Positions 14,713-63,582 of a DNA stretch of 64,000 nt are shown here, one piece after another. Made by a program: the position numbers and the translations under genes. The stretch spans positions 4,729,663 to 4,793,662 of the forward strand of contig NC_133221.1 of the NCBI RefSeq assembly GCF_040436345.1, read 5' to 3'. The notes below the pieces were generated by a model. It did no database searches and was not told the origin of the DNA. It was given only the letters and a program-made list of their open reading frames with translations. Origin of the DNA: Pagrus major. Its lineage: Eukaryota > Chordata > Actinopteri > Spariformes > Sparidae. Position 1 is the first letter of the stretch. Each line of letters begins with the position of its first letter.

Positions 14713-16764
<2,052 letters not shown>

Positions 16765-18128: not shown

Positions 18129-22001
<3,873 letters not shown>

Positions 22002-31800: not shown

Positions 31801-34800
31801 TAACGATTAGCTCTGTACAAACCTGATTGGCCAGGCCGTGAAGAGGACCGGCCAGACCATTCATGGCGGCGCTGAAGGACAGGTAGGGGTCAGACAGAGC
31901 ACTTCCCACCAAGTGGCTGGTGTGGGCACTGACGTTGCCTCCTTCATGATCACTGCAGCACAAGAAAACAGTCACAAATTACAACATGTTGGCGTTCGCT
32001 ACATCTGAGCTCTGAGTGGTGAACGGAGCCTGTTGGTCCGTGTTGCATTTAACCGTTTCAAATTAACAACATCACAACAGAAAGACACTGATGTCGTCAC
32101 TGCCGCTCCTTTTCAGGAAAATCATTTTAAATGGGTCGTAACTAATCACCCGTCTCCATGGTAACCAAGCAAATGAAGGAGAAGCTTGTTCTGGCTTTAT
32201 CAGACAGATTCTCCCATGACAGAGACAGAAAAGCCCACGTGTTTGAGCAGATCAGCGAAGGGTCGTGCTTTCATCACCCTACACACAGTATATGCTTGTT
32301 GTTAGCTGTGCAGTCGACCCTCCGTTAACATTGTGTTATGCAGAATTATTTCTTCTCACCACACAAAAGTGCTTAATCCCAGCGCTTTTCTGCCAGATAA
32401 GAAAGCCAATAATGGGCACAGGGCCTAACATCTTTTGATATACGTCAGAAATAACAATTCTCATTTCAACATGTCATCCCTTTGATTCTTTTTTATGTTA
32501 AATACATGGATAAAACCAATATTATCTTGGGCACAGAAAAAGATAATCTGTTTGAAGTGGTTTCCAATTCTTCAAACACCTCATCTGAGTTTTGTTTCAA
32601 GCTCGACATTTAAATTAACATGAATATTGTCTGACTTTGATCAAACTGTGACCAGAAACAGCAACGCAGCACAAATCTAGCTAGTTTATAATCCGATGTT
32701 TCAAGTCGTACCTGTGGATGGTGAGGTAGAGCCTCATTAGCTCGGTGAACTGGGCGTCTCCGTAACCCAGCATGTTGGTGAAGTTGTGGGACCAGTCCAG
32801 GTTGGAGTCGATGGCTCCGATGCTGCTGCCTTCGCGGTACAGGTTGCGGTAGATCTTGGCAGCAATGCAGGGCAGCTTGGCGATCAAGTCCATGGAGTCT
32901 TCGTAGACAAACTAGGGGAATACATGTAAAAGGGTTTGGAACGAGAACAATCTACAACCATGCCTTCAGCTCTGTGAAGCTGTAACACTCTTTACACAAC
33001 AGAAAAACAACATTGTTGGATTTAAAAAAGGGATTAAGAGCGTGAATCTGTAACACGTTCAATGGCAATCTGATATTTCACTTTGGACAAACATTTCTAT
33101 CCTAGCGCCAAGCCACCAGCCTGTTTTAAAATGAGACGTGTCGACGTGAACTCACCTCCCAGTACTTGGACTTGTGGACGCCCTCAGAGTAAGCCCGTGC
33201 GAAGCTGCTCTCGCTGTTCAGAGCGGTGATGGCAGCACTGAACTGAGACATGGGGTGCAGGTTTGTGGGGAAGTTATCCAGCATGGTGACAACGTGGGAG
33301 GGAAGTGCTGCTCTCTTCGCCCACTCTTTGGAAACCCAGTTCACCTGGAGGGACAGAAACACACAGTAATGCTTTTCTGCTCCTTCTGAATCAGATTTGT
33401 TGTTGGAAATGCACGCGACAGAGATACATGCACAGATTTAGTTGCAACTTTATTTTCCCAGCAAATATTACATACAGTGCCACAGTAGTGTACAACAAAA
33501 GTATTTGCTACGTGATATCATCCTTAGCTGACCTCTTTTTGCAGCAACAGATGCACTAAAATTAATCATAAAGACCAAAGGGTAAAAGAGGTGAAAGCTA
33601 TTCCCTCCAGGGAAATGTTGCAGTCAGCTAAAAGGACAAGGCTTATCGGTCATTATCCTCCTATCACCCTTCAAGGAGATAGCAGACATCAACAAAATGC
33701 CCATTTAAGGTACAGACTAACTCTTGTTTTATAGTTATATAATAGTGTCTGGTTTATATAAGACAATGTCCTGGAGTCATAAATAATTGACTACTCATTT
33801 CCAAAACTTCTGCTTGCCAAACATTTTGAGATTAACCTTCCCATGTTAATAACAAGGTAACACTGGTCCTGTTACCTCTCACATTATCGAGCTCCTTCTT
33901 CAACAGAAGCAATTATAATAAATATTTGATTTTGAAAAGGCTGAAATGGTGCGGGGGGATTCTGTCAAAATCTGACAAGCACTGTGTGAGATACCAGGAC
34001 GGACAGATGGATGGCGAGAGAACGAACAGCTGCCTCATTATAACTACTGTAGAATAATCTTTGCAGCTCCAGCGATTTTTTTCCGACTCACCTGCTCCTC
34101 AGTGGGCACCTGTCCTGTGACCAGCAGCCAGAAGAGGCCTTCAGGCAGCGGCTCGTCACCTCCTGGAGCTTTAGGCAGCAGCTGCTGGCACTCGGGAATG
34201 CTGTAGCCCCTGAAACGGATGCCCTGTGTATCAAAGGAGAGGGGGGACGTGACACAACGTGAATATACATATTAACATTATCCTGAAATGCCCCGTCAAG
34301 TGAGTGTTGGCAAGCTGCCACCATCAGCTCTGGCTCTAACAATGAATCTCGATAATTCAATATCTCATTCCACGTGGTGGCCAGCCAACAAGATATACGA
34401 CAGCAATCCCATTCTGGGACTAAAAACTCGCAGCTTCAGGAGGAAGGCAATCAACATAAGTGCCTACGAGGCGGGCTCATCTCCAAATGGCAAAAAAAGT
34501 GTTTGAATAAGATCGCTGTAAGAATCATAATACTTTGTGCCACTTTCTGAGGCATACTGACCTCGTCGGGATCCAAAACAGAGGTCTCGTACACCAGACC
34601 CTTCATCCCCCTCATACCTCCATAGACCTGTGGATGAAAACAAGCAGACAGAGATTTAACAAAGAGAAAACTGTCTTGTTAGCACTAATCTCCAAATCCA
34701 GGATTGGATTTGACTCGTCAGTTCAAACATTTTTTTGCTATGATATTTATAGACTATACTTCCTTTGTAAAAATAACAGCCATATATTTTTCCTGGCTTT

Positions 34801-42377: not shown

Positions 42378-45300
42378 TCAGTCGTCTTCTTCCTCGTCGT
42401 CCTCTATGGGATCTATGAGGATGCTGTTCTTCAAGCAGGTCTGGAGGTAGTTCGCCACTGTCCGCTGGAAGTGCTGGATGCTGCGCGGATCTCTCAGGAC
42501 GTGGCCCTCGTCTGGGTACAGCTGCAGGGAGTAGTTGGCTTCCACCTTCACCAGTCGGCTCAGGAGCTCAGCGCTGTGCTGGAAGTGGACCCTCGCTTTG
42601 GGGCAAACACACAATGAAATTAGAGGTGAAGAAATATAAACACAAGAATGTAATTTCTGGCACTAGGGGGCTCCATCAAAACAAAATATAAGACATTCGC
42701 AGAGTGTTTTGTGGGGATCAGATTCTGCTCTGATCCAGAGCTGTTTACTGAGGAGAGCTCAAAGATGAGTTTTTACCTATTTGGATTAAAAAATAGATTT
42801 ATCTTCACTCCTGTTTATCGACCTGACTGACGCAGGCATCCGCAGAGGTGACCCCCGTTATCTGCGTTTATGTCACCTTACTGTAATGTTGACTGCTGAC
42901 TGGAGCTGGAGGGGAAATGTACTTTATTTCTTGGAGACATTACTGAGAGGAGAGGAGGGAAGAAGACAGAGAGTGTGAGAGTCTGAGTCTCTGCTGAGCG
43001 CCACATAGTGAGAGTTGACCTGAATATAAACACACTCTCCTCTTGTGCCTCACGTTAGCTCACAGCTAATGTAGTAAAGTAATGTGGCTGTTTGTGGCAG
43101 ATAAACACTGTGTGAGAAAGGCAAATAAACGCGGATGATCGTGCTGTCAGACTTGTTTTTCTGGTGGTGGTGGACGCACCATTAAACAACCAGTACTGTA
43201 GAAAAAAATCTATCTGATGCGACAAGGTAATGTTTTAACGGCAACCTAATGAAGTTTTATGACATTTCAATACAGAATTCCTACATATTATATCTTTAAA
43301 CCATTTTATGTCTCTGAAAATAGACTTTTTGGAGAGTTAAAATATTCAGGCCCTCCAGTTTTCAGTATTTACATCTGGACTGGCTGATGCAGACACACAT
43401 ATTTGCTTCCTAATTGGGTGTTTATGTAGCCTCATTGGCAAATGTGGACTATGTGTGGAGTATTTGAGCTGTACATTGATGGAATTAATGTTATATTGTC
43501 TATATTTAGAAAGACACAAGCAGATATTGCTAATACAATGCTTGTGCAGTCTTGTTTCTTTCCCTCATCATTTTGTCTTTTCTTCTACAATCAAAGTAAA
43601 AGCAACCTTGTAAGTACCAACCACTGAGTAAACAATCTGTATGTGAATGCTCATGTGAAATGCATTTTCAGGTGTGTTGATAAAGATGGAGTTTATTTCT
43701 GGCACGGCGCTAAAACGCTCTCCTGGACAGAGATTGTTTTTGTTTGCAAATATACCCGTGTACGCGTGGACTCAGCAAAAAATTTGAACAAAATCTCACC
43801 ATCTGCAGTCCCATGTAGAATAAGGAAGTTCTCATCTTTCAGCTTGTTTACCTCCTCCAGCAAAGAGGCGGTCTGAAAAAGATATACCATCACATTACAT
43901 TTGCTTCATCATGTGGCACCTCACCTCGCTGAAACTAAAGCAATCTCACACAACAGCCCTGCAATAAATTCCACCATCATAAAAGTTTAATTGTTCAGTT
44001 TTTGTTGGCACTGTTTGAGAGAGGTGTTGATTTAACTTTATGGTCATCTTGGAGGCTGTAGACTGAGGTGCAGCTGAATTGTATTGCATTATAAAGAGAG
44101 ACGTTTCTGTTATTCAGTCTCCCCCGTTTATATAAAAATGGGGTTTTCAAAATATTAGAAACATCTCTCACCAGACGAAGCAACTGCCCCTCGAACTATA
44201 ACTGTCACAATGACCATAAAGTTGAATCAGCACCTCTCTGAAACAGTTTCAATAAGAACTGACCATTACAACCATCACAGGGATTTAAAAACCATTTCCA
44301 CCTGAATACTTCAGAGCATTAAGAGCCTCACCGAGTAGGCGTGCTCCTCCTTTGCTGGAAGGCCGAGATACCTCTCTGAGAATGCGGCGCCTGAAATAAA
44401 GTGGAATAACTTTTTAACTATCTCACCGAATGGGTCTCAACTTCATCACTTTTCCCGAGGCCTCAATGTGTGAATAATTAAAGACGTGCTCTCGACTCAC
44501 TGTAAAGCCTGAAGTCAGTTACCGGGGCCACGGCGGCCGTGCATTGAAAGAGCTTATCTGTTGCAGCTAACATCTTGAGGGCTAAATAACCGCCGAACGC
44601 CTGGCGGGAGAAAGAGAAAAAGTGTTAAAACAAGAAAAGCATGTGACAAATTTGAAGGCTGAGTGTCCAGATTTAAACAACGCTGTAACCTTGCCATAGA
44701 GGACCATCCGACGATCGTCAATGTAGGGCAGTTGCATCAACAACCTGTGGAAATGTAATAAAATCACGTCAGTTTAATAATTGTCACATGCCCGTTATAT
44801 AGCTTTATGTTTGTTGCATAACTGTACTGACTGCACAACTCCAAGATAATCTTTGACTCTCAGCGAGCCGAGCTTGCGTGAATCCACAGCGGTTGTCTTC
44901 TGCCCGCGGCCGACCCCGCTCCTGCCGTCCACCCAGGCCAAGGCCACGTTGTGTGTGCCGGAAAGGACCTGAGGCCAGTCGAGGGCAAATTCCTCTGTCA
45001 CCGACTGACTGCCTGGGACGCCATCGCTGAGCAACAAGACAAACCGGATCACTGACAGTTGTTAGGCATGGAAGTAAGACAAAAAAGGCTTCTATAAGTT
45101 GCACAACTCGGTGCCTTCAAATAGCCCTTAGCTGTGGTTTAGCGTGCTTGTTCAGTGACCCTTACACAATGATGAGGAGAGGGTGCAGGTTGGCCTCGTA
45201 ACCCTGAGGGAGCGATAGCTTCAGGTGTAGATCTGAGGAATGCAAACAGAGGTTAGACAAGGTCGACCGCTAGGACTGCTCCTGCATTTAGAGCCTCAGC

Positions 45301-48300
45301 CTGAAATACATGTGAAGCACACACACGTCTGTGGAAACCTTTAAAAAGTAGCTCAAGACCTGCTCGATCTATTTTCTAGTTTGTGTCCCTCTCTCTGCTT
45401 TAATTGAGTCTTGTGCAGAGATGGGTAGTAATCGTACTTACACTTTCAAAACAGGCTCGTTACTTTAGTTTTCATGTATTTGAGGGAAATTATTATTATT
45501 TTTATGTCACTTTTCCGACATCACAATCAGTGCATGTCACGCACGGCAGACATAGCGAGTCGAAACAACGTGCTCGAGACACTTTACCAACCCAAAATGT
45601 GGCTATTTGACGTCCTGGGAATTAGACTCAACTATCAACTATCTCTGTGGTGCGTTCAGGAACAGCTGAGACAAATCTTACTGATTCTTGAATTATATTA
45701 ATATGACGTGTGGTTCAATAAGCTTTGACCAAACTCTAATAACTACTACTAACTCTTAAAAAAAAGATTAAATATATGAGTTTAGTGTTGGTGTTTACAC
45801 CGCTAGCACAGGAGCTTAGCTGGTTAGCATGCTAACTTCAGTAGATACTGTATCTCTGCAACACAGCAGACGTCATCATGTACAAACTATGTTATTTCTT
45901 CACATTCTGTTGATAATGTTTTGTTAATTTTTGTAATGTTCTGTCACAATATTACATTTTCACCGCATGATTATCACGGTTAAACAAATTCATGATAATG
46001 AAATCATTTCAATATCTGTAGAAATTTGAAAAACAAACATCCCGTCAATCAAATCTATCTTTAATTGTGTTTTCTGTGTGTTTTGTGTTTTTCTACACAA
46101 GTTTAGGGAGGAGGGAGACAGAGTCTGTAACCATAAACTGGAAAGAAAAGCCCACAAAAATAACAATTACACTTTGCACTTCAATTGCTTTGCTTTGCTT
46201 CTTTGTTTTGACAGCAGGGCCGGGTGTACGTGCATAGTTGTGCATGTCAGCAATTCTGCAGAAAGATAGTTTGTTGCTGAGTCACATCCTGAGGACGTCA
46301 AATATCGACCCTCTGACCTTCTTCAGTCAGAACCGTACACATGAACCAACATGCAGGGCCACGCTCTGAAAGAAGACTTGCCGCTGGTCCTTGAGGGCAC
46401 GCATGAGTCACACCAATTAGCTAATCACCAAATAGAAGAAATTACTGCTTTGGTTGGTACTTAACCTTATTTGTGTCTCCAAGGGTGAGATACTAAGCCA
46501 CTGATTACTATAGTCAGACTGCTTGAGAAAAAAACAACTTGTGAGTGTGTTTGTGTGCTCAAAATGCTTAATGTCAAACCATCCTGTAAAGCTGTACCGT
46601 GGTTCTCTGCTGGGAGCGTCCTGAACAGGGTCTCAGGGAGCCTCTTGTCCTCCAGAGCTCTAGATAGAGGGCTGTTATCCTCCAAGACGACATATCCTAC
46701 AGGAAATAAAACAAGAGTGTGACTGATCATCACTGTAGCTCATCAGATGCAGATTAAATCCTCATCATCACTGAGGAAGCAGCTGTAACTGCGAGCCACC
46801 AACAGAGAGCAGTGTTCACAAGCGAGAGTACTGAATCCATACTCTGGTGGGCTTGAATATATCGCCGCCTGCAGGCTGACATGGGGAACTGCAGACAGCC
46901 TCTGTATGTGTGTCTATGTGTGTGTGTGTGTGTTTGTGTGATTATGCTATTAGCCAGACAAGCAGATGTAACACTCACTGGAGGGGTCCTTTGTACTGTG
47001 AGCTGTCACTTTAGGGATCCCCGGGCCTGGTGAGGTTTTCAAAAGACAACATTATTAAACTGTCTGAGCGGCGTGAAGCTTTTTCATATTCTCTCTCAAG
47101 TGTGTGAATGCGGCGTCTTCTTGCCTAAGCAGTAGAGGGTGAAATGGGTTTGATTGGGGCTGAATACGGCTTTGAAGAAGCGACATCCATCTATGAGGTT
47201 ACAGGAGATGCACTGGCGCTGAAACACTCCATCCAGGTCCACACTTGGGGGAAGAAGAGAATAAAGGGTTATTGACCACACTTAAGAACAACACGACGGT
47301 CTGAAGCGGTTTGATCGGCTCCAAGAGGTCAGTGGATTTCTAGGATATTCAGGGTAAGCGTCGGTGTCTTGAGACAAACTATTCAGACAGCTGACTTCTA
47401 AGAAACAGATGGAGTTCAATAAGATACGACATAATGGTTGTTACACAGACTGCGAGCCTCTAATGTCCCTCTGCACGCAGCTGCTTACCAATTTCATACA
47501 ATATTAATCACAGAACACATTTAAAGACGCCATTGTCCCTCCTTCTCCATACTACTGTCTAAGCCCAAAGCTATGTAAGCTATTAAAAAGATACGAAACC
47601 TTGGAAGATGGGACCATAAGTCTGAGTGACTCAGCAGCACAGAGGGCCCTCGTCCACTAAGTGTGTTTTTTTTTTTTCTGTTATAAATGTGTCAAATCAC
47701 CTCTTGGCCTCGAGCGTCCAGAATAAACATTCACATATCCAAACATTAGCGGGCAGTTTCTCTTCTGAATGTCGGTTTGTTGGTCCAAACTGTTTCAGTG
47801 TCTATCAGATGGATTTCAGTGGCATTTTGTGAAGACATTCATGGTTTCAAGATGATGAATCCCTGCACATTTACGTCTGAAGAAGGGCTTGAGCCCAAAA
47901 TCTCACATGTGTAGGTAATAAATAATAATAATTGAAATAATGTAGCATTACTGTAGTAACTTTTGTGTTACCTTGACGTTTTGTCTCGCGCCATCAACAG
48001 TTTTATTTGTCCTGTATTTTATGACCAAACACTAACTAACGACATTTCCATCAGACCTTTTTGTTTGCCACTGCCTTTTATTGTTTCTTGACGTCTTCCT
48101 ACTTGTTTTTAATGTCTTTTAGTGTAATTTTAAAGCACTTTGAGTTGCCTTGTGTCTGAATTGAGCTATACAAATAAACTTGCCTGCCGGGATGCATGCA
48201 TTTCACCGTGGACTGAGTGTTTTGGTACTTTCTCATTATTTTTATATCACCTAGACTTACTTTATAATAAAAAAAAAAGACATGCATATCTCACTTTACA

Positions 48301-51300
48301 CATTATGGGGCCTTTAAAGTTGGACTGTTGAAAACTGCTCCACAGGGCATTGTATTTCTCGGATTAATGATAATATTCTGTCTGTTTAGTAGCATTTGAA
48401 GCAGTAGCATCTGTTCAAGGCTGTATGAATCGTGCTTACCTGTAAAGGTGTCTGCTCTGCCTGGATTCTTCTGTGCTCAGGAAGTAGCTGACGAGGAGAC
48501 AAATCAACCGCAAGTTATTCAACTCGGCAGATCACCTTTGGGGTATCTTCACTTCATCATAATTATTCAGGATATCAATTATTCATGGACAGAATCAATC
48601 CACACTTATTTACATAACCCCCCGATGTTTATAAAAATAGGGTATCGCATTTAATTTGTAAATCAGCTTTAGCGATGGTGATTTAAAAACATCAGAGGAG
48701 AGGATGCACATCAAAGTATGTTGACTAATGACTTTTGTGAGAGAGAGCGACTTGTTTGGAGGCTAAAAAGCAGAACCGTCCCGCGGGCTTTGGGCCTGCG
48801 AACGAGATCTAAGATTGACTGTCCTTGATTCCCTGTGATGCTCACACACCTCAGTCAATCAGTTCATGAGGGGGTTTCTGCCCCCAGCAGGATAAAGACA
48901 GATTTAAGCAATGATCTGCTCTGCTGAAGTGTAAGTAGTCCTTCGGCCTCTTCATTGCCACGAGCACAGTCGGGATCAAAGCCTTTTCCTATTGGCGAAT
49001 TAACCGCGATCGATGATACATGTTAAAATGGCCCCTTTAGTTATTTTTCTTACGTGTACGACTCACCTACAGTCTGACCCGGCGAATTAATTTGCCTCCT
49101 AGTATCCGACGGGTCTGCAATTTAATCTCACCTTACAGCGAGACATGATCATTTTAATGATGGCCACTATTCTGCTCTCCCCCCCCGTCACTTGTACATT
49201 AATACCAAGGAGCTGCAGGCTGCTAAAGGCGCTGAAGGGTGATTCACCCCGTTCCCACACAACGTGGCTCTCATACATACATTTTTCCAGCCTTCTCGTC
49301 GAGGGCGCACAGCAAGGTGACGTCCCAGCTCCCTGATGTCAAGAAGCGAGGAGGGACGGAGGGGATGGCAGGCTGCGATTGCACAGAAGAAACAGAGATG
49401 AAGAGGAATGTCGAAGCAGGCGGATGCACAGAGTAAAAATAGGTGCAGCGATACAGCGAGTGTGTGTCAGGATGGAGGTTCAAGGCACTGACAGCTAGAG
49501 AGAAGAGAGAGTTCAGAAAGTGTCATTTCATTTTTTATTTTTAACATTAGGACTGAAGATAGAGAGGCACGGGAGAGGAAAGGTCATTTCATGGACCGAT
49601 ATTGAGACGATATTAGAGCTGCAACGATTATTCGATTAAAACATTTGCTTGTTTCAGCTTCTTAAAGGGTAACTTCAACAATTTGCCACATTAAAGTCTG
49701 TTTACAGGTCGTCAAATGTGAAAAATGCTCATTTCATTTTCCCAGAACCCAAAATGTCGTCATTCGATCGCTTCTTTTGGCAGACCAACAGTCCAAAACT
49801 CAAAGATTTATCATAAATGACAAAGAAAAACAGCAAATCCTTACATTTAAAGGGTAATTCCACCAATTCCACCAGTGTGTTTACAGGTCTTGGAAAGTAC
49901 TTCTGATAAATTACCTTCAGGGATGTCACTCAGGGTCTAAGTTGCATTGTGGGTAATGTAGGTTTTGAAAAGCAGTCCACTGTTGGACTCACTGTGGACG
50001 GTTTAAAAACAAATGATCAGAATCAATACAGCAGAACCAGAGATATCACCTTTCTTATTCCATGCATTCCTCTTCTTTTTCAAAACCTACATTACCCACA
50101 ATGCAACTTAGCCACTGAGTGACATCACTGGAGGTAATTTATCAGATGCAGCTTCATCTGGAGCCACAAAAGGCTTTATACGACTTAAAGTCACCCTTTA
50201 AATGTGAGGATTTGTTGCTGTTCTTTGACATTTATCATAATAAATGAAGAATCTTTGGGTTGTGGATGCTTTGGTTTGACATAAAAAGCAATTTGAAGAC
50301 GTCACGAACATAATTGTTTTTATAATTCATGGACCAAAAGATGAATCAGGAAAAGTAATCAACAGAATAATTGGAAATGAAAATAATCGTTAGGTGCAGC
50401 TGTTGACAATAAACCTTAAAACACACTCCCTTTTAAATGCCAGATTCACTTAATCCTTCAGTAAAGAAAAAAGAAACATGATGTCATTCTCCCCTGTAGA
50501 GAAAATGTTTTCAAAAAGAAAATGACATCAAACATTTTTTTAATTACTCCGCTGAGGATGAATAACTTTCCAAATTGAAACGAACTGAAATGAATTCCCT
50601 CAATAATGTAAAGGGCAAACCAGCGTTAAAGGATTAATGAGCAACATGACTTATTAGATTAAAGTGGTGCTTAAGTAATTAGGGAGAAAACAAATGCAAA
50701 CAAATGGCCTCAGTAATAATAGAAGAGGAGGACACTGTGAGCAAACACGACCTTTGTGTCCGTCCTCTGTAATCACACTGTTTTATGTGAACCCTCTGCT
50801 GAAATGTTAACGACCAACTTTGTCAGAGATTATTCGAGGATGACACGAGGGAGCGAAAGTTAACTGACCTGAGCTGAAAGACCGGCGATGTGGTGAAACT
50901 CTCCCCGAGCGCCTTGTTTGGCTGGCAGGACTGTATAAAACACAGAGCCGTCTGCTGAGAACAACGGCACGTCCTGTCGAAGAAAAAGTCCTGAGTCAGA
51001 GGACGGACGGTGGTGATGCACACGAACTTTATGAAAACGTGAGCAGTGCTTACCTGACGCTGGTTTTGCATGATGTCCATGGCCATTTTGTGTTTCTGTT
51101 GATTTAAAATCACACAACAGAGCTGAGTTAAGAAGCTGTAGGGGCCTAAATGCTGGTTATTTGATGTTTGCTTGAGTAATTCAATGATTTAAGTTCGCAA
51201 GTTAAACAGTAATCTACATAGATGAAGAAGGAAGTGGAAGGAATATACAGGTTGATATATCCACAGTTCATATTTACAGTGTTTTTTTAACCTTAAGTAA

Positions 51301-54300
51301 TGTGAGAGTGGAGTCAGACAGTTTTTATTTATTTATTTATTTTTTTACCTCAGCTGTCAAACGTTTCTGGCTTCAGTAAATCTGACAACTTTTGAAATGA
51401 ACAATTATTCTGCAGCACCTTTTCTTGTGTTGAAGTAAACTTTTTTAACCCTGTCGAACGGTCCGTCAGAGCATCAAGAGAAGGTCAGAGGTGGAAGCAA
51501 CAAAGATATAACAATTTGTTACCGTGCTTCAGTAGATTCATTTTGCTGACAACTGTTGACTTTTCCTCCCTACGTCTGAACACAAATACCTGAACTTCCT
51601 CCTCCTTACATTTTCAAAAGAGGCACGTTACTTTAGTTTGAATGCATCTGAGAGGAATTTATCGATTATCATTATTTTGCCTCGTTACACGCCGCCTTCC
51701 CGACATCACAAGACTGATTTCAAGCAATCAGTGCACATCACGAAAAGACGTAAGAAGACAGAAACAGACAGAGAGGGAGACTGGAACGGGCTCGGGACGC
51801 TTTACCAACCCAAAATGTGGCTATTTGACGTCCTGGGAATGAGACTCAACAATCAACTATCTTTGTGGTGCAGCTGGGACAAAATCCTACTGATTCTACC
51901 TTTAAGTTTAATAGTCTTTGAATTATATTAATTAGACGTGAGCTTCAATTAGCTTTGCACAGAAATGGCTGGTAGAAATGTCCTTCAGAGGGAGACTTTG
52001 ACACTTTGAGTACTTCTCAGAGCCTGTACTTTATTACTTTTACTTGAGAAAAGAAGCAGAATCAGTACTGAAGTATCTGTACTTCTACTTGAGTAAACAA
52101 TCTGTGTACTTTTGCCACCTCTGGCTGAGGCTTTACGTATTGGACACCTACAGCAGCATTGAATATATGAACCTTATTACGCATATTGATTATTAAATCA
52201 ATAATGAATCATTGGTTAATGGCCACCTGGAATCTATGAGGATTTTACAGGAAAAAAGGAAAACAAGCAATAAAATACTGCGGTACACCGCTGAAAATTC
52301 TTCTCATGCAGCAAATGACCTTAAATATTAATCCAGCCGGTGGACATTCGAGAGCTTAAGGAAATCAATCCTGACTCCCAACACACAGTAGAAGAAGCAA
52401 AAAAAATTCTATTAAAGCCGTGTGTAGCAGTGGGGTCCGTTCGGATTACTAATGTGGAACGACTGATGACCGCTCACCTCGGAGCATGCCCCCGTGGTGG
52501 CCTCGCACACACACAGCACCGATTGGTTCTGGGCACGATTCAGCCAACGAACCGCGAGGCGGGTGCTGCTAATCCAAGTCACCATGGAGATGTAGCTGTC
52601 TCTGAAGAGGCGATGCAGAAAATGATACACGGGGAAAAAAAGATTGGAAAGTGGTGCATGAGAGAGAGAGGAGCAGTGAAGGGGAGAGAAGAAACTTGGA
52701 TGTGCAATCATTTCTGACAGGTGGTGTCTAAAGTCTTCTTGGTTTATTCTGTTTTTTAACATTCACAAAGATGTAGTACCTGGCCCTGAGGGAGTCGGGA
52801 GGCATCATCTCCAGAGTGTGAGCTGGACCATATAGATTCACCACAAACAGACTGACTGATGGGATGCTTGAGCCTGCCTGTGAGGCACAAGAAAGGAAAA
52901 CAGATGATCAAATACACTCATGAAACATTTAGAGTGTAAATTTTGGCAAATATTTTTAGTTACGCTCGCGCTCAAAGCCGATCTGTCGATCCACCAGTTT
53001 GTTCCAGACCAATGAACTGCCATGAAATCTGGTGCAGATATTCACGGTGTCCAGAGAGTTAATCCTAGCCATTTTGATTGCTCGCCTGACTTCACTGATT
53101 GCTCCACTGGCAGGTTGAAATTTTCACGCATCAAGTTAAATATCTGAGCAGAAGACCTCGTACAGACTTCCATGGCGTCCAGAGGATAAATCCTAGTGAT
53201 GTCGGTGATGCCTTGAGATGTCGTCTAAGTGCAACCATGAGGCTAAATTGTAAATTTGAGTGAAACGTCTCAACGGCTGAATGGATTGCCATCACAATCA
53301 TTCATGTTCCCCTCATTACCTGTAATAACTTTGGTGATCCATTAGTTTTTCATCTTGCGCCATCATCAAGTCAAAAGTCACCTTTATAGTGGAAGCACTA
53401 AAAAGTGACGCTGCCTCATGCATCTTAAATTTTTCATGTGTAACATTAGTAAAGTGACTATTACCAGCTGTTGGACCGGTGAAGCCGAGGGTGAGATATG
53501 CCTTCTCGTATTTTCTTGTCCCCCACTTCGGGAACCACTGATTTAGTTTATGACAAAAAACCAAAACTGCCTCACAGAGTCACTAGTGTGGCTGTAGATT
53601 TTTCCATTTTTACCTTGGGGTAGGGGAAGACAACATTGGACGGGTAGAGACCACCTAAGAAGTGCGGTATTTCCATCACAGGTGTGGCAGAGTTGTTGAT
53701 GGTCAGGTACGCCAGCCGGGCCCCGTCCATGGACCACCAGTGGGCAACATATGTCAAGAGCACTTCCTCTGTTTTTAAAAAGGCCGTGTTAGTTGTTACT
53801 TTCAAACTCAAAGCGCTCACCTGTTACTCACGATTATTGTTGTAAGCTTCATTTTACAGACCCTACCTTCATAAATCCAGTCAGAGAGCCCGTTCACCAC
53901 GTTCTGCTCCTGTTCGGTGGTCGTGAGGCGCAGAGGTTTGCCGGTCACGCTCGGCTTGTAGTAGATATCTCCGTCGAACACATAGGCCTGGAGTGAGCAG
54001 CGGAGACAGACAGTGCCAATCCATTATCAAAGACAGTGTGTTTGCAGGCGTCATCGCTGGCTCGCCTGAATCTAGTGTCGGACGCCGTCCAAGAGTGAAT
54101 GAATCATCGTCCAGCACACACACACACACACACACAAGTGAGAGCCAATACATCTTTACTCTCCAGTTAATATGCTGCAGATGAGCACCGACATCGCAGC
54201 ATCAGCCAATTACATTAAACGGAAGGTAGATGAATTATATTACGAGTGTAAAACAACCCCATTATAGCAACACGGTGACTGCAATAACCTCTAAGCTTCA

Positions 54301-57300
54301 TTTCATACTGACAAAGACATGAAAACACTTATATCATTATGAAAATGGTGCCAATGGAGGCTCTGTTCACACACAGAACACATTATATAGATTGTCTATA
54401 ATCTTCTCATTATATTGACGGGCAGATGACAAAGACAACGCATCGATTGGGTAAATGAGGAAGTGCCAGGCGTACCAGCTGGTTCCCCTGCGGTCCCCAG
54501 GAAGCGTATTGTAGCACTGCCTTCTCTTTCTCCGGAGGGTTAAGCTCCTGCAGATCCCTGGAACACACACAAAAACTCAGACATAAGCCCATCCGATGGG
54601 GACGAGTGTCCTGTTTTTCTAAGCCCTCTGAGGTCCATCCATGCCCTGGCCCTGAACTTTGAGAGAGATACTGTACTGTGAGGACAAAAGAGCAAGATGC
54701 AGAGAAGGAAAAAACAAAACAGAGAACGGGGGTTGGTTCATGCAAGAGTGCAACATTTCTTTTTCTTTATTTCTAGCTGCGCTTATTATCTTCCTCAGGA
54801 CAGGCAAACATGTTCCTCCAAGGCATACTCAGGCAATGATCAATGCTGCAGGTCCTCCTGAAACCCCTTTTTTTCAGAACCAAGCTCCAGAGAACATCCA
54901 CAGCTACTTTTTTTCCCACTGATATAATGCTGGATATGAATCTCAGGCAGTGAAATCTGAAGTACAGAAAGTGCAAACCTTACGTCTGGATGTGAAACCT
55001 GGAAAAGGACACTGACGAAATGAATGCATGTCTGACAGAAACATGAGGTTCTGATTCAATGAGACACACTCTGGGGGAGGTTTTTTTTTTTTTTTTTTTC
55101 AATCCGCCGGTCTGCTTGCATCGGTAACGCTCATGCCCAGTGCAGCCCATGCATTAGCATACATGATTCCACCTACCCATTAGCCACAGTGTAGATAGCA
55201 TAGGAGGCTGTGAAGGACTGAGAGAACACCTGAAAGAGGTAGAGGATATCATGCACACAGGTGTGCCGCACTTAGATGACAACACACACATATTTCTAGT
55301 CCTCACACACATGTATAGAGAAAGTTAAATGCAAATGAAAGAAAGGCTGTGAAGGACGCTGCAGAGGAAAAACCTTACAGTAAAGCAATAAGCAACGAGA
55401 GGCTGTGTTTGCATCCTCCTCTGAAATCACTGCAAAGCACCGCACCGCGTTGCTTACTGCTTTAATAAAAAGGCAGCGACACCGTTATGCTTCAAGATTA
55501 GAGAGGAAAATGTTGAATCAACCCCTAAATTATTCTATTAATCATATTTTTAATGCAATTAAAGGTGTAAAATATGCGCTTGTGTTCAGCATATCACCAG
55601 AAAAACCGACAGCTGCCGCTCTTTGCTAACTGGGACTGAACACTGAGCCTCAGATGGTGGAAAATTTAAGTGTTGAAAATCCTTTTGATGCCCATTTTAT
55701 CTTATTTTATCCCATTTTCTCATTACTACTTTGATCTTATGTTCTGCACTACACAACTCAGGGAGATGCATCGCTGTTTTGTTGTTTTGCACAATGACAA
55801 TAAAGACTTGAATCTTGCAACCCTATAATATGGAGGTGATTTACAGCAGCTCTGACCAGGACTATGACCCTGGGGATGAGAAGATACAGCAGGCTGGGAC
55901 AGTAGGGGGAAAAAAAACGGTGTGTCGAGCCAGAGTATTTTCACATTTATTCAGTGAAGTGAGGATTTATTACGACCGAACCAGAGATGCTCGTGGAAAG
56001 ACAAACCAAGATTATTTTGGCCAGCTTTATTTTGTTTGTGTCAGGTTTGAATTAACGAAGCAATTAAGCCTTTCTTAGTTGTTTATATGAGCAAAGCTTG
56101 AATTTAGAAGGTGTGCGGTTGTATTTTTCTGTTTAATACGGCAAAACAAATGCAAAATATTGACTTTCTTGACATTTTTTTGAGTTTATTTCCTTTATTT
56201 TCAACACTAAAAGCTGAGCTGGTTGGCATGCTAATGTCAGTCTCTGCAACACAATACAGACTTCCTTGACACAACGTCAACATTATTGTTTCTTCGTAAT
56301 CTTCACAGTTTTATAACACGCTTAGTTTGTATGATCCATTAATCCACTTGCAGCCGTTTCATCGATATTACATCATTATTGTGATCACATCTGAATAACG
56401 GGAATTTGAATCCCGTGCACCCTTGAGACTTGAGTGAAGGAGACGACATAAAAGTGCAGAAACAAAGACAGGCATTCTTCTTAAATAGCATCATTACGGC
56501 TAATATCCTTCCCACTGAGATCTACTGTGGCTGGCAACTCTGTCGCAACCCTGACACTCCCGTCAGCAGCTTGATGATTAATTAAATTAACACGCTGAAG
56601 AAGACTAAAGGATCTGAATCGATGACTGTGCGCATGTGCATGTGTGCGTCATCGATCACAGCATTACCTGATGAATTCTAGGTAATATATTGATCGGTAC
56701 CGCCTCTTTTTCTGCTCAAGCAAAAAATGGGATGGATGCAGGCTATTTGCCCCCGCTGGCCCCCTGGAAGCCAGAGCCTCCTGGAAATCCCCTCCCTGAA
56801 GAAATTAAATGTCACATCCTCTATGCAGCACACTTAGCAGTGAAATTGGATTTCTCTCTCTGTGTTGTTTGTCTGTTGTCAGGAGATTCATGGATGGAGT
56901 GATGCAGGAGGTAACCCTGCAGGGATAAAGGAGGGGAAATAAACTCTGAGGCTATCTAAATGAAATTGAAATCTAATTGTGGTGTGAGGGTCTGAGCATG
57001 AAGGGGGCACAACAGTGTGCACAGGAAAAAAAAAAGAGCTGCGTTACAAGAGAAAATAGCTGCGAGAGAACAGGAAGAGGAAAGGATTGAATCGGTCAAA
57101 CGGGAAAAGGACAAAGTGTGGGAGGCAGATAGAGAGAAAGAAACAAAGACAGGAAGAGAGGAGGGGGGGGAGAGGCGGCCGGAGATGACGGATCCTCGCC
57201 ACACAGCGAGTCGGAGGGGAGCATCACTCTTTCGAGACCAAAGGGGGGCAGCATCGCCAAGAGCCGGCGTGTTCAATCAGCTGTTTATGATTTGTTAAGG

Positions 57301-60300
57301 AACCCGCAGAATCTGCTCATGATTTTACATTATGGAGCTGGTGGCGGAGGCTGTGCGTTATTGTGCGTCCGCGTGATAAACAGACAGAGAGAGCGAGAGC
57401 GTCTGTCTCGGAGAGGCGCGGTGAATCCTAATGTGGCTGCCAGAAACATATCATAAATCCTCCAGATCGCTCTTCTCCTCCGCTGCTACCCACCCCCTCC
57501 TCCTCAATCTGTGTCTCCAAAACGAAAGGGGGGTGGGTGGTGGGAACAACACGCACAGATTGAACACTCGTGAGAAGATGCTGTGGGATAACGTGACAAA
57601 GGAGACGCGACGAGATCACAGCACCTTCAACACGAGCGCACTGACAAGCATCCTTCCGTCTCAACCTCGTTTTCTGCCTCACAAGCGTTTCAGAGCAGCG
57701 CCACACAATGCGCTGTCTTTGGTAACAGCACCCATCAGCGTTTGCTGCAGAGTGCAGACTCGACTCCCCCCTTGGCATTTTTTGTTTGTCCCCCTACACG
57801 ACACTGTCTTGGTCCGTTTTTGCCTCTGCTCATCAATCCCAGAAGCCTCCACCATCTACTCCAAACTTCATCCCTCTTTTAAAAAAATAAATATGTAGGT
57901 CTTCTCCTTTTCCTCCCCTCCCCTCCTGCAAACAAACCTGTTTAATTCAAACCAAATTTCCTGCAGGAAATCTAGCTTCTCTCAGGTTCCTATGTGGCCA
58001 AATCCCAAACTCACTTCTACCTATACCCTCTTATCAAAACCCATTTATTTTCACACAGCAGGCAGGAACCCTCCCCAAAGCCCTCCAGAGCTAATACAAC
58101 ATCCAGAGAAGCCTTTTTAACTTTACACACATCCATTTTCTCTGTACTGCAGCCTTTCTCCTTTTAGCATCTCTGTCATTCTTTGATAACCATTCTGATT
58201 GATTTCAACTGGGCAGTGTATCTAAGGGCAAATGGTGCATAACCCATTTTTCTTCCCACCCCCTTTTTTTTCTGCTGCGAGTGGCTCTCTCCTCTGTTTC
58301 TCTGCCACTCTCAACAGCGTGCCTGCCTCCTCTTCCAAAACAGCAAAGCCCTCGGTGCCTGGTTGCAAACTGCTTCAGTCAGCACAAACCCCCCCCAGAG
58401 ACAGACGGGGAAAAAAGTGATTGAGAGTGAGGGAAGATGAAGTGGGAGAGAGAGAAGACGGGCAGCTAGAAAGACAAGGATCCTCAAACACACAAACAGA
58501 CATATCCATTTTAGAAAAACGCACAGATGATGCCAGGTGGCGTCTCCACACCGCTGTCCCTGATTTTCCTCGAGCGTGAGTATACACATGCTGAGCATAC
58601 AGATGAGGTGGCAGACAATTCCTGCTGACATCAAAGGAAGTATGCTAATGGACGTGGCGTGAATCAAACCCAAAGAAGAAGAAGATCTGAGCCCCCCGGT
58701 CGCTACCGAGATATCTGAAAACTGATTGGACGCATGTTAAACCCGCTCAATAATTCAGTTACAACGAGGATGCACTGTGTTTGTGACGACTGCTGTAGCA
58801 CAGCAACAGGCTGCAACAGAGAAAAGATATGATACGCAGTGATTAGAGCAAACAGCAGATCTCCAAAGTGAAGCCACAGAGAGAGCGCAGCGGCTGTGAC
58901 TCGAGAGCAGCGAGATCTGACTCTCAGATATTTTAATAAAAAAACGTGGGGGAATGTGCCGAAGGGCTTTCATTTCCCCCCACTAATTCAGTTTTCTCCT
59001 CCTCGCCCATTTACTTGCACATTACACAACTTTGCCTGCCCTTTGAGGAACGTCTCAACTATTTATTAATGGTGCGGGTGTTTACAGAGTGAGTGTGTGT
59101 GTGGAGGCACTGAGCTAAGTAAAGGATCTGTGTTTTGTGTCTGCCCCGACGCTTATCTCGAAACCACCTGCGATTGTGATTCTCGTCAGCTTCTCATTAA
59201 AATTCTCCACTAGCAGAGCGATTTCATTACTGCAGCTCCAACTTTACCTCTTCATCTCCTTGACGCCCCCTTCCCTTCCCTTCCCTTCCCCCCACGCCAT
59301 CCACTTCACACTGATCACTCACTTCCAAAGCTTTCCTCAAACCCCACTGCACCTTCCACCCTCAGCCAGTTTAAATATTCAACCCCCCCATATGTTATTC
59401 CAGTCTAAAGACTGCTGCAGCTGCAGAACCAGCAAACACACACACACTCTCCTCACACCTCTGCTCTGTTGTTTCTTTTGGATCTCTGATTCAGACACGT
59501 GGAGGTGTGTGAGCAGGCAACAGCTTTGTCTTTGATAACTTGTGGATAATTTATGGCCCTGACTGTTTTTTCTGAGGCTTGATGTGTCGCCGCTCTGGAA
59601 TAAATCTGGAGTCGACTTGACATTTAGAGGAAAACTCACCGGTCGAATGTTGTACGCCAAGAGGACAAACCTCTTGTCCGCAGACACTTTGAATTTAGTC
59701 GTGGTCAGGTCCTGTAGGTAAAACAGAAAAAAAAAACAGAACAGACAACATCAGCAGCAGCTTCGATTTGCTCTCCGGTGGATGAAGTGGGTTGGGTGAC
59801 AGCACTTGGATGTTTTTCTTCATAACTGCTTCGTATCGACTGCTGACAAACTGTGTGATTTGTCATGTGGAGTTCCTGGCGTATTCTCCCTGCATCTCCT
59901 TTTTGGGCCAATATTCACTTTCTTTTACCTCTATTTTTTTGGTCTTTGAGTTAATATCTGGCTCTTTAGCTGCTAAATGCTCCATTACGTTCACCAGCGA
60001 GCCTCTAACTGTTTCTGTCTGTCATTTGGAGCTGAGCAGGTAGTTTAAGGAGCTAAAAACTAGCTAACTCTGTCTGATATCACCATGTTGGCATTGCTCC
60101 TAGACGATCATTGTTAATGTTGTTTCAGCGCTATCAATGCAACCGAGCAATCAAGCTGTCATGGCTGATGTCATAGTTTTTAGGACTCATGGTGTTGTCG
60201 CTCCAGGATCACTTAATTTCTAATTACTTATTATTTATTTTCTGTTTTCTGACGCTGTTTGGTTAGGTTTAGGAAAACATGGTTTGGCTCCTTCACAACG

Positions 60301-63300
60301 TTAAACACATCTTTGAAAGGAAATTGTCCAATGTGTGTATTTTTCCACAAGTCGCAAAGTTGTGACGTTACAGAAACGTGATTGGGAAGTTTGTCGTACA
60401 GCTAAACAATGAGATAAAAGTCGTAGGTCAGTCCTGTTATTGTCAATTAAGAAACAAACTATCTTTCCACCAGCCTCAACAAATCATGCTTTTTTTTTTG
60501 TCTCAAATCTCTTGTGACACTCGTATTCATGAATATTTTCTCATTATAAGGACAGTAAGCAAGAGACAAACAATTATCAGGTGATAGAAAACACAGAATC
60601 AGGATACGTTTCCCTAATTTCACTAAAGAAATATCACACATGGCAAAAATATGACTCAGTGGATAAGCATGAAGCTTTTCTCACGAGTAGGTCACTTTTT
60701 GGAGCAGATGCTGGTGAAAACAGCACAATAACATGACAACGTTTGTACTGGTATTCAAAGTGGATGTTGCCGTTTTAGTGACATATAACCAAAATGTTCT
60801 GGGTTATAAAACACAGGAGAAAGGTCCTGAACAAGTCCAGGTGATACTTGTTTTAAATTACATTATTTCTGTAAGTGAGAATCACTTTTTGACCCTGATT
60901 TTGTGCTACATAAAAAAGTTATTCCCACTGACTCTGAAGCTGAATCCCAAAGTTTGACATTATGTACAGCTAAAAACAACTGCCTCAGCAAATTATATAT
61001 TCAGGGAATCCCCATGTTTGCTTGGTATTCACACAAGAAACTATCTTTTTCTTGAATTATCAACAGCATCAGAGATAACAAACACAGAGGAGAGACTTCT
61101 TTTCAACCCTGACAACACAACCCTGCTCCGAGCTCCTCGGTGATGACCCATATAAGTCTGTCAGTGTCGAGCAGAGGCGGCGATGATACACTTGCTCGGG
61201 AAAATTCTCTTTGAAGGCACATGTTGAGGGCTCACAGAGCAGCCAGATTGGGGGGGAAATGAGCTGATACTGTCACTGCCAAATCTTTTTTTGTCTCAGC
61301 TGTGGGTTGTGGCACAGTGGGACTCTACAGCTTCACTCTCTCTCAATCTGGATGCATCCACTCTGTACTTGGATGGCCAATTTGTCCAGCTGTCTGCGCG
61401 TGGATATGAGGCCAATCAATGCTGATATCTTGTCCCCTCTCCTCATAAGCTGTGATGCTAGAAACTCACCAGGGAGCTGTTGTCCAGGAGAGCCGTGGTG
61501 AGGTTGCTGTTGAGGCTGAACGACAGCACGTGTCCTTCCCTGGTGCGGACGGCCACTTCGTTTTCTGACAGGGTTAGGACAGTTCAGAGAAAACAGTCCT
61601 GTGTTATTACAGCGACGACTTAACTCCACAAGAGAGAGAAGACGGTTACAAGGTCTGCAAACCAGCGGCTCGGTCTCAGGTGAGATCATTAAAGAGGGCA
61701 CTTTGTCACTCAGGAGTAATTAGCGAGCGAAAACGGCGATTATTACCGTTCAACCAGGCCACGCAGGGGTCATGAACTTTGAACTCTTCACTCTCCAGAT
61801 CCTCCATAGTGAGATGGGAGCGGAGCAGCAAGTGAGATTCATCTTCAGAGGCAAAGAGACAGAGTTAATTAGTTCATCAGATAAAGTCATGTCATGTTTA
61901 AAGAAAAGCAAAGTCTGGAATAGATTTCCGCTCCTGCCTCGGATTCATTATTTGCATTTTTAAACGTCACTGTCGGTATCCATCAAACAAACTTTATTTA
62001 TAAAGCACCTTCAGAACAAATCAAAGCGTGATTCAAAACGCTTTACAAGTGATTGAAAATGCGTAGGATGCTGGAAAACAAACATGGATTTAGAGACTAA
62101 TCCCCCTCCCCCCCGGACAACAAAACAAAAAAGTGAATCGAATAAGACAGAAATAAATATGAGTAGTCAAAATAATTATGGATAAACAATAGAAGATAAA
62201 ACAGGCTATGTTGGCCCTGAGGATCAAAACACAACAACATTTCAGAGAACACAAGAACGTTTTCCGATGTTTAAAATGTTTCTGTGTTTTGTGAAATGTT
62301 ATTGGGTTGTGTTTTATTAAATGCTGTTTTACGAAACGTTGTGAAACACTGAATTGTTTTCTGAATTACTGTTGTTTTATGAAATGTGGTTACTTCTGAA
62401 ATATTGTGATTTTTAAAACATTGACTTGTTTTCCAAATCGTTGTGTTTTCTGAAAGATTGTTGTGTTTCCTACACTGAGGGCCACCGTAACAAGCAATAA
62501 AAATAATAATAAAAATAAGATTATAAAAATACTACACATAAAATAGATTATAATTAAAAACTAAAATGCTTATAAAATAAAAATACAATAAAATAATAAT
62601 GATAAACAATAAAATGTTGGTAAAACATAACAGAACATTTGTCAAATAGTTGACCACATTTTGCCTCCTTTTAAAACAACTGTTCGCCTTTTTGTGAAAT
62701 AAACTTATAGACGTTTTGTACGTTGAATATGAAGCTACAGCCAGCAGTCGCTTACCTTAGCTTAGCATCAGGTTTGGAAGCAGAGGGAAACAGCTAGTTA
62801 ACTTTTTTGTCCAGTGGCCAGTGGCTGGTGAATGTTCAAATTTTACCAGCTACTTATCGTTTCTCGGCCGGCGAGAGGAGCAAATCTTCCAGCCACTTGC
62901 TTATTTTACCGGCATTTGGCCCGTGGCTGGTGCTTATTGAGAGCCCTGCCCACAGGCATCTCTAAAGCTCACTAATGAAGATGTTACACTCAACTAATTT
63001 GTTTAATCTGTACCAAAGCGTAAGGACAACAATTTTACAGGAGTTTATGATCATGGCTGGGAGCAGTAACTTCTTGGATTTCTCTCCTGGTTGCCTGGAA
63101 ACTGCTCCGTGAGATTAAAACCCTCCACAAAATGGTGATTGTTGGTGTTTGTACAGATAAAACCAAAGATAATAAAACAAAGATATAATGTGTTAATTAA
63201 TGAGCTTCAGGGGGGCTGGTGGAAGGATTGTGTTACCTTTGGAGAGCCAGGCTGGCCATTATTTCCAGTCTTTGTGCTAAGCTAACTGGCTATAGCTTCA

Positions 63301-63582
63301 TATACACCCTACAAACGTACGAGTGGCATCGATTTTCTCAGTGAACTCTCCACCTTGAATCCACATGAGCCTATTTTCCCCAAAAGTCACAGCGGTCCTT
63401 TAATTCCCCACATTACAGCTCCTCTCTTGACTTTGTGGCTTCTACTTTGTCCAACCGCTCTTCTCACCTGGCGTGAGGAGGATGACGGACAGGATGACCA
63501 GAGACATGACAGCCAGGATCACCACCATGGCGATCCCGATGCCTTTCCAGTTTCGCGGAGGACCGTCTGAACTCCCCAGGTC
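42378..63582 (-). CDS. Inactive dipeptidyl peptidase, DPP6/DPP10-like (N-terminal exon outside the window)
   Basis: I could join 24 exons in frame (high to low): 63582-63468, 61842-61747, 61564-61470, 59711-59640, 55229-55177, 54557-54476, 53987-53867, 53768-53614, 52877-52780, 52601-52478, 51095-51054, 50973-50869, 49372-49281, 48487-48440, 47243-47125, 47026-46979, 46696-46598, 45232-45166, 45026-44832, 44744-44690, 44600-44501, 44390-44332, 43872-43800, 42595-42378. This gives 776 residues. DPP6 and DPP10 are type II membrane proteins that modulate Kv4 potassium channels in neurons. Visible are [11 protein letters not shown] and one membrane helix (about residues 15-36), a beta-propeller ([28 protein letters not shown]), the Cys pair of RQCISCN, and an alpha/beta-hydrolase end with HGTAD and YPDEGH. 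The nucleophile position is Ala628 (YGKAFGG); Asp704 and His736 remain. The acidic tail ends EDDEEEDD. It matches DPP6 in some exons (PGSQSV) and DPP10 in others (LRLTT, KIYFLSTE), so the orthologue is left open. Confidence 0.9.
45416..45700. mobile_element. Partial copy of the CAGAGGTGG element in a DPP-like intron
   Basis: It begins CAGAGATGGGTAGTA and shares with 51486-52123 the words CGTTACTTTAG, ACCAACCCAAAATGTGG and GACGTCCTGGGAAT (about 45581-45650 against 51799-51870). The right end is missing or displaced. Positions 45780-45860 then carry fragments of the foldback family (CTAGCACAGGAGCTTAGCTG). Confidence 0.6.
46913..46940. repeat. (TG)n microsatellite
   Basis: Interrupted TG run in an intron of the DPP-like gene. 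A similar CA run lies at about 54115-54136. Confidence 0.9.
47123..47124 (-). other. GC splice donor (GC-AG intron) of the DPP-like gene
   Basis: The exon 47243-47125 ends TGCTTAG and the intron begins GCAAGA. The next exon starts after CACCAG at 47026 and restores the frame as CLG-PGIPKV, which matches the family. No GT occurs at or near this junction, so the GC donor is the only reading that keeps the protein intact. Confidence 0.8.
48126..48180 (+). mobile_element. Retroelement 3' tail (LINE/SINE type)
   Basis: TTAAAGCACTTTGAGTTGCC followed by GAGCTATACAAATAAA is a 3' end pattern I recognise from fish non-LTR retroelements. Only the tail can be delimited. Confidence 0.5.
49614..50402. mobile_element. 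TAGRGCTGCA family element, long foldback, copy 3 (interrupted)
   Basis: It begins TAGAGCTGCAACGATTA and ends with AATCGTTAGGTGCAGC, inverted repeats as in copy 1. The two halves are roughly complementary over much of their length: TTATCATAAATGAC and AGCAAATCCTTACATTT on the left mirror AAATGTGAGGATTTG and ACATTTATCATAA on the right. The symmetric centre is split by a second element at 49847-50201. Confidence 0.7.
49847..50201. mobile_element. TGCATTGTGGGTAATGTAG foldback element, copy B, nested
   Basis: A 19-base arm at 49943-49961 is the exact reverse complement of 50087-50105 and identical to the arm in copy A at 10483. The outer ends TTAAAGGGTAATTCCACC and GTCACCCTTTAA are near-inverted. 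It sits inside the element 49614-50402 close to its axis of symmetry. Confidence 0.75.
51486..52123. mobile_element. TIR element with CAGAGGTGG ends
   Basis: It starts CAGAGGTGGAAG and ends TTGCCACCTCTG, a perfect 9-base terminal inversion. Near the right end it contains GTACTTTATTACTTTTACTT and CTTGAGTAAAC. The 640-bp interior encodes nothing recognisable. The same family is partly present at 45416-45700, in another intron of the same gene. Confidence 0.75.
55230..59639 (-). other. Large intron of the DPP-like gene
   Basis: The largest intron in the gene. It holds a retroelement tail ending GACAATAAAGACTTGAATC (about 55700-55815), fragments of the foldback family near 56215, an inverted ATCGATGAC/GTCATCGAT pair (56618-56626 and 56648-56656), a purine-rich then CpG-containing block (57030-57430), and a CCCTT repeat near 59270-59290. 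No exon of another gene is convincing. Confidence 0.5.
59712..61469 (-). other. Intron of the DPP-like gene without clear features
   Basis: AT-rich unique-looking DNA between two short extracellular-domain exons. I see no RNA gene, repeat with clear ends, or nested gene. Confidence 0.5.
61985..62050 (+). mobile_element. Retroelement tail
   Basis: AACTTTATTTATAAAGCACC and AAACGCTTTACAAG are typical words from fish non-LTR element ends. From 62200 to 62480 there is also an irregular series of GTTGTGTTTT/TGAAATGTT units, a degenerate tandem repeat. Confidence 0.45.
62700..63320. mobile_element. Foldback-like repeat with GCTAAGCTAA core
   Basis: The left end (GTACGTTGAATATGAAGCTA near 62719) and the right end (TAGCTTCATATACACCCTAC near 63293) are imperfect inverted repeats. 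TTAGCTTAGC near the left and GTGCTAAGCTAACTGGC near the right strengthen the match. Elements with TAGCTTCATATTTA ends are frequent in fish as I recall. It lies in the intron after the membrane-helix exon of the DPP-like gene. Confidence 0.55.

Follow-up and report, generated by a model that had tools for sequence, protein, structure and literature searches.

DPP6 and DPP10 are dead enzymes that adjust a potassium channel of the brain. Proteins of the DPP6/DPP10 type (dipeptidyl-peptidase-like proteins, DPLP) begin with a variable first exon, for example one carrying MNQTA. To our knowledge, the human gene set contains no third member of this type. Two DPLP genes are spoken of in PMC3366920. 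According to three other papers, DPLP bind Kv4 through their transmembrane region, with the helix of DPP6 touching S1 and S2 of the voltage sensor (PMC8566240, PMC4873792, PMC9409431). The DNA analysed here, called the window, is a stretch of 64,000 nucleotides from Pagrus major (assembly GCF_040436345.1, contig NC_133221.1, positions 4,729,663-4,793,662); coordinates are those of the window unless stated otherwise. A DPLP gene occupies the minus strand of this window, from 63582 to 42378. As judged from its sequence, this is an intact gene of the DPP6/DPP10 type, which codes for a predicted single-pass membrane protein with a catalytically dead ectodomain. The favoured explanation, to which we give a probability of about 0.78, is that it represents a third gene of the family, born when the genome was duplicated twice early in vertebrate history (2R), whose single-pass, dead-peptidase membrane product would have a Kv4-type role.

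The gene model comprises 24 exons that join in a single frame of 776 residues plus a stop codon. The splice sites are GT-AG throughout, except for a GC donor 3' of exon 15 (47125..47243). The GC content at third codon positions (GC3) is 0.70 in the joined coding sequence versus a GC content of 0.41 in the introns. The modelled protein starts just ahead of the transmembrane helix and ends in an acidic tail. In a phmmer search against PDB chains it scores 817.6 bits with DPP10, 776.6 and 772.9 bits with the two longest DPP6 chains and 419.2 bits with the best DPP4 chain, which excludes a chance similarity. The identity is 48.5% to human DPP10, 43.4% to human DPP6 and 30-33% to the DPP4/FAP of mammals and two fish dpp4/fap-like genes. 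By sequence, the protein therefore appears to combine a propeller and an alpha/beta-hydrolase of the DPP4 type and to stand nearer to DPP6/DPP10 than to DPP4.

A PF00930 profile search of the genome (786 Mb, 25 contigs; C-numbers denote its chromosomes) gives 25 matches in ten places. These are dpp6-like genes on C19 and C21, dpp10-like genes on C9 (two, distinguished here as C9 plus and C9 minus) and C24, dpp4/fap-like genes on C24 and C9, two further loci on C11 and C21, which are probably dpp8/dpp9, and the window gene on C7, where exons 7 (53867..53987, with a C-terminal DWIYE), 8 (53614..53768, with the Glu-Glu motif retained) and 10 (52478..52601) match the profile. The splice phases of the window gene are usable for modelling its paralogues, the fish dpp4/fap-like genes included. 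Seven paralogues were modelled by exon-guided alignment with conserved phases; the models are partly incomplete, and the dpp10-like ones lack exons 1 to 3 or 4.

The first-pass annotation had described a GKAFG elbow with alanine at the catalytic serine and with Asp704 and His736 of the triad kept, and the joined frame of 24 exons bears this out. The elbow reads G626-K627-A628-F629-G630 and its Lys and Ala straddle a splice junction: exon 20 (44690..44744) ends with G-K and exon 21 (44501..44600) opens with GCG, the codon for Ala628. Asp704 is encoded in exon 23 (43800..43872) and His736 in exon 24 (42378..42595, stop included). The protein does not have the GWSYG elbow, with its serine, of active DPP4-like peptidases. 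At DPP4 positions the changes are S630A, W629K, Y547D (the first residue of exon 19, 44832..45026), Y666F, R125S (in exon 5, 55177..55229) and Y631F.

The same annotation had taken the alanine as a sign of a separate loss of activity, and this does not hold. In place of the catalytic serine there is V on C19, A on C21, A in C9 plus, G in C9 minus, D on C24 and A in the window gene. Since two other paralogues in the genome carry it, Ala is rejected as a diagnostic mark of the window gene. The other inactivating changes are common to human DPP6 and DPP10. All six fish dpp6/dpp10-type members and both human proteins have Y547D, have lost S630 and have replaced W629, by Lys in all cases except for a Glu in the dpp10-like gene of C24. 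Tyr666 is changed to Phe in every dpp6/dpp10-type member compared except C9 plus, which has Asp, and R125 is retained in C9 minus and in the C24 gene. Because the three changes are common to the paralogues and to human DPP6 and DPP10, the simplest reading is that activity had been lost by the time the DPP6/DPP10-type genes separated, and that the residue at the serine position drifted afterwards.

The relation to the two known genes was examined in a maximum-likelihood tree of 13 proteins and 582 columns under LG+I+G4. The dpp6 pair of C19 and C21 groups with DPP6 with a support of 100/100, and the fish dpp10 genes group with human DPP10 with 92/81 (89.7/85 when the outgroup is removed). The window protein lies outside both groups, basal to the DPP6 and DPP10 clades, with a support of 73.9/65. 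Approximately unbiased (AU) and Shimodaira-Hasegawa (SH) tests were applied to 14 fixed trees. AU tests were also run on a set from which C9 plus, with its long branch, had been removed, using the models LG+I+G4 and LG+C20+F+G4. The AU test rejects the window gene as a teleost dpp6 duplicate, that is, as the sister of teleost dpp6, with p 1e-42 for the 13 taxa and 3e-07 and 6e-62 without C9 plus. Placing it beside or inside teleost dpp10 was tried in five ways, and each is rejected as well (p 0.0325, 0.00011, 0.0287, 0.000721 and 0.00157). When C9 plus is removed, a direct partnership with C9 minus or with C24 is rejected under both models (p < 0.004), and a sister relation to DPP6 as a whole is kept (p 0.158 and 0.194). 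Among the remaining trees, tree 11 is rejected (p 0.0439) and trees 12-14 are kept (p 0.14, 0.374 and 0.53). From these AU results it follows that the sequences exclude membership in dpp6 as well as a simple duplication of dpp10 within teleosts, whereas some older links to DPP10 remain compatible. The earlier interpretation is upheld in part, the third paralogue being the supported component. Among the 13 proteins there is no firm grouping inside the teleost DPP6 or DPP10 clade, and the window protein is neither a teleost dpp6 nor a partner of the main dpp10 copies; a deeper link to DPP10, on the other hand, is compatible with the data.

The chromosomal distribution of the family adds a second line of evidence. 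The hedgehog genes (11 matches) occupy one locus each on C19, C21, C24, C9 and C7, and the engrailed genes (4 matches) are on C19, C21, C9 and C24. One hedgehog/engrailed pair is thus found on the chromosomes of the two dpp6 copies and the other on those of the dpp10 copies. The window gene lies with the fifth hedgehog, on C7, the only hedgehog-bearing chromosome without another PF00930 match. By exclusion, the C7 hedgehog would be dhh. In humans, SHH, EN2 and DPP6 lie at 7q36, EN1 and DPP10 at 2q14 and IHH at 2q35; DHH, RACGAP1, BIN2 and CS are all at 12q13. Near the window gene there is a racgap1, whose top PDB match is Rac GTPase-activating protein 1, and a bin2/bin1-like exon, for which bridging integrator 2 is marginally ahead of BIN1 (4.2e-9 versus 1.8e-8). 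The neighbouring citrate synthase gene cs, already named in the first-pass annotation, is recovered on the minus strand at 28856..32911, a span that covers the two tested exons and not the full gene; PF00285 matches them with 36.6 and 23.2 bits, respectively above and below the cut-off of 27. The distribution of the hedgehog, engrailed and dpp genes suggests the pattern expected of a third 2R ohnologue. The ohnologues would form a trio, with DPP6 on the SHH/EN2 chromosome, DPP10 on that of IHH/EN1 and the window gene on that of DHH/RACGAP1/CS.

Several observations weigh against this origin. The evidence for it is drawn from one fish genome. In the AU test the window gene may be basal (p 0.749), sister to DPP10 (0.505) or sister to DPP6 (0.336), and also sister to human DPP10 (0.262; 0.176 and 0.218 without C9 plus). 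The SH test is milder, rejecting only trees 7, 8 and 10 of the 14 in the 13-taxon set. The branch of the window protein is long (0.62) and its precise position varies among the compatible trees. Regarding the chromosomes, hedgehog and family gene are separated by 2.5-18 Mb, and on C7 by 12.3 Mb; what they share is hence a chromosome and not a neighbourhood. A hedgehog match on C7 alone is expected by chance in about 1 of 24 cases. Against the PDB, the N-domain of the C7 hedgehog matches SHH with 280 bits, ahead of IHH (266) and DHH (245), which does not show it to be dhh. Finally, the first coding exon lies upstream of the model and of the range given in the first-pass annotation, but about 30 kb there contain no MNQTA codons and no convincing candidate for it. 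This missing exon and the long branch would also suit a dying gene or pseudogene whose frame is open by chance. Such an origin is highly improbable, given that the frame and splice sites are intact across the 24 exons, that GC3 so exceeds the GC content of the introns and that the transmembrane stretch is closer to DPP6 than the whole protein is.

Some of these points would also fit a fast-evolving, fish-only copy of dpp10 instead of a 2R ohnologue; such a copy would have arisen by tandem duplication or translocation prior to the teleost duplication. DPP10 is the closest human relative, and a position as sister to the pair of C9 minus and C24 is not rejected once C9 plus is left out (p 0.115 and 0.22). 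The divergent C9 plus gene itself shows that such copies arise. The exons lean the same way. The first-pass annotation had seen a mosaic, with some exons nearer to DPP6 and others to DPP10; this is rejected by the exon-wise identities, in which 18 of the 23 exons alignable to both human proteins are nearer to DPP10, 2 to DPP6 and 2 are ties, while the aligned lengths of exon 2 are unequal; several of the DPP10 leads amount to one residue. Against a fish-only copy stand the AU rejections at all five teleost dpp10 positions (p 0.0325 to 0.0001 with 13 taxa) and the location on a third hedgehog chromosome, together with racgap1 and cs, and not on C9 or C24. Moreover, the window gene is free of the one-residue deletion after YPDEGH that human DPP10, C9 minus and C24 have in common (C9 plus is also without it). 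A fish-only dpp10 copy is therefore improbable, and a third ohnologue is preferred.

The role of this third ohnologue may be approached through its membrane segment. Exon 1 of the model (63468..63582) contains the juxtamembrane and transmembrane segment, of which 19/28 residues are identical to the human DPP6 stretch versus 43.4% over the whole protein, in a comparison that leaves the transmembrane exons of the fish paralogues aside. As for DPP6 and DPP10, the conserved helix would pack against S1-S2 of the Kv4 voltage sensors and speed their gating, and the ectodomain would dimerise and aid export. By analogy, modulation of Kv4 is the likeliest role. A third ohnologue detached from Kv4, with another partner (another channel or an adhesion function) and the ectodomain as its working part, is unlikely: the identities to human DPP10 and DPP6 (48.5% and 43.4%) are slightly below their mutual 52.8%, and the window gene's own Y631F and lost last intron speak of a separate history, but the Kv4-binding stretch is better kept than the whole when compared with DPP6. 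The gene appears to be missing in humans and would have been lost in mammals. We propose tentatively, as a possibility clearly short of even odds, a third vertebrate DPLP class on the DHH/CS paralogon, kept in at least one fish and lost towards mammals, with a divergent ectodomain that would provide a regulation of Kv4 or other channels absent from mammals.

The lost intron concerns exon 24, which is undivided in the window gene. In the dpp6/dpp10-like genes on C19, C21, C9 (both) and C24 an intron precedes YPDEGH, and in both fish dpp4/fap-like genes the reading frame departs from the protein near this place (the next exon was not read). Because five paralogues have the intron and both of these frames break nearby, the window gene has most simply lost it. 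The remaining exons, like those above on the minus strand, are exon 2 (61747..61842), exon 3 (61470..61564), exon 4 (59640..59711), exon 6 (54476..54557), exon 9 (52780..52877), exon 11 (51054..51095), exon 12 (50869..50973), exon 13 (49281..49372), exon 14 (48440..48487), exon 16 (46979..47026), exon 17 (46598..46696), exon 18 (45166..45232) and exon 22 (44332..44390).

The dpp10-like paralogues have features of their own. The C9 pair (L019-L027) lies tail to tail, at about 31.09 Mb (+) and 31.15 Mb (-). The plus-strand gene is diverged, with 27-75% identity per exon over the 18 exons compared besides exon 19. In exon 19 the pair has 57/64 identical residues and 92.5% identical DNA over 199 bp, and the match ends within 2 bp of the exon edges, which looks like a conversion limited to the exon. 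The C24 gene (18.22 Mb; L007, L028, L029, L033) has the elbow GEDYG, with Asp as in DPP6, and an extra intron apparently splits its exon 19.

Around the window gene, a DUF1295 (steroid-reductase-like) gene stands between racgap1 and the bin2-like exon on the minus strand (L039:8473-8847); the open reading frame (ORF) beside it, L040:1296-1526, has no Pfam match. Downstream of cs, hsd17b10 (3-hydroxyacyl-CoA dehydrogenase type 2) has its C-terminal exon at 16549-16761 on the plus strand. In a Pfam search with ten ORFs from the first 42 kb of the window only the two citrate synthase exons were recognised. The exon-like, high-GC3 ORFs 1173-1391 and 21813-21998 (plus strand) have no Pfam match, and the latter has no PDB match either.

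In the single open-licence literature library searched, none of the paper titles listed names a third DPLP member; the window gene may sit in databases under a "dpp10-like" name. If true, a third ohnologue would make the set of DPP6 and DPP10 complete, in parallel with SHH, IHH and DHH, and the shared substitutions would place the dead active site before the split of DPP6, DPP10 and the third gene. It would also offer a natural variant for probing which features of the ectodomain are needed in Kv4 modulation. As a caution, the label dpp10-like on a fish gene need not mean dpp10.

Among known systems, DPP4/FAP are 30-33% identical to the window protein, which has similar exon phases and differs from them at Ser, Trp629, Tyr547, Tyr666 and Arg125. 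Fly DPP10, compared by its description in PMC4873792, belongs to the same wider family and serves Kv4 as an auxiliary subunit, but it keeps the serine and digests peptides. Human DPP6 (DPPX; PDB 7e8b, 1xfd) has the same dead-enzyme changes and 19/28 residues of the transmembrane stretch in common with the window protein. The two differ in overall identity (43.4%), in the four-residue insert before TFTC, which is present in mammalian DPP6 and absent from the window protein and fish dpp6, and in the motif HPTAD of human and fish DPP6 versus HGTAD in the window protein. Human DPP10 (DPPY; PDB 4wjl) is the closest human relative: it too has a sequence of the DPP4 type, has lost the serine, carries Y547D, W629K and Y666F, keeps the Asp and the His, and has the motifs HGTAD and YPDEGH. 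On the other hand, at 48.5% identity, the window protein has Ala-Phe at the elbow where DPP10 has Gly-Tyr, and it does not have the one-residue deletion that follows YPDEGH in DPP10.

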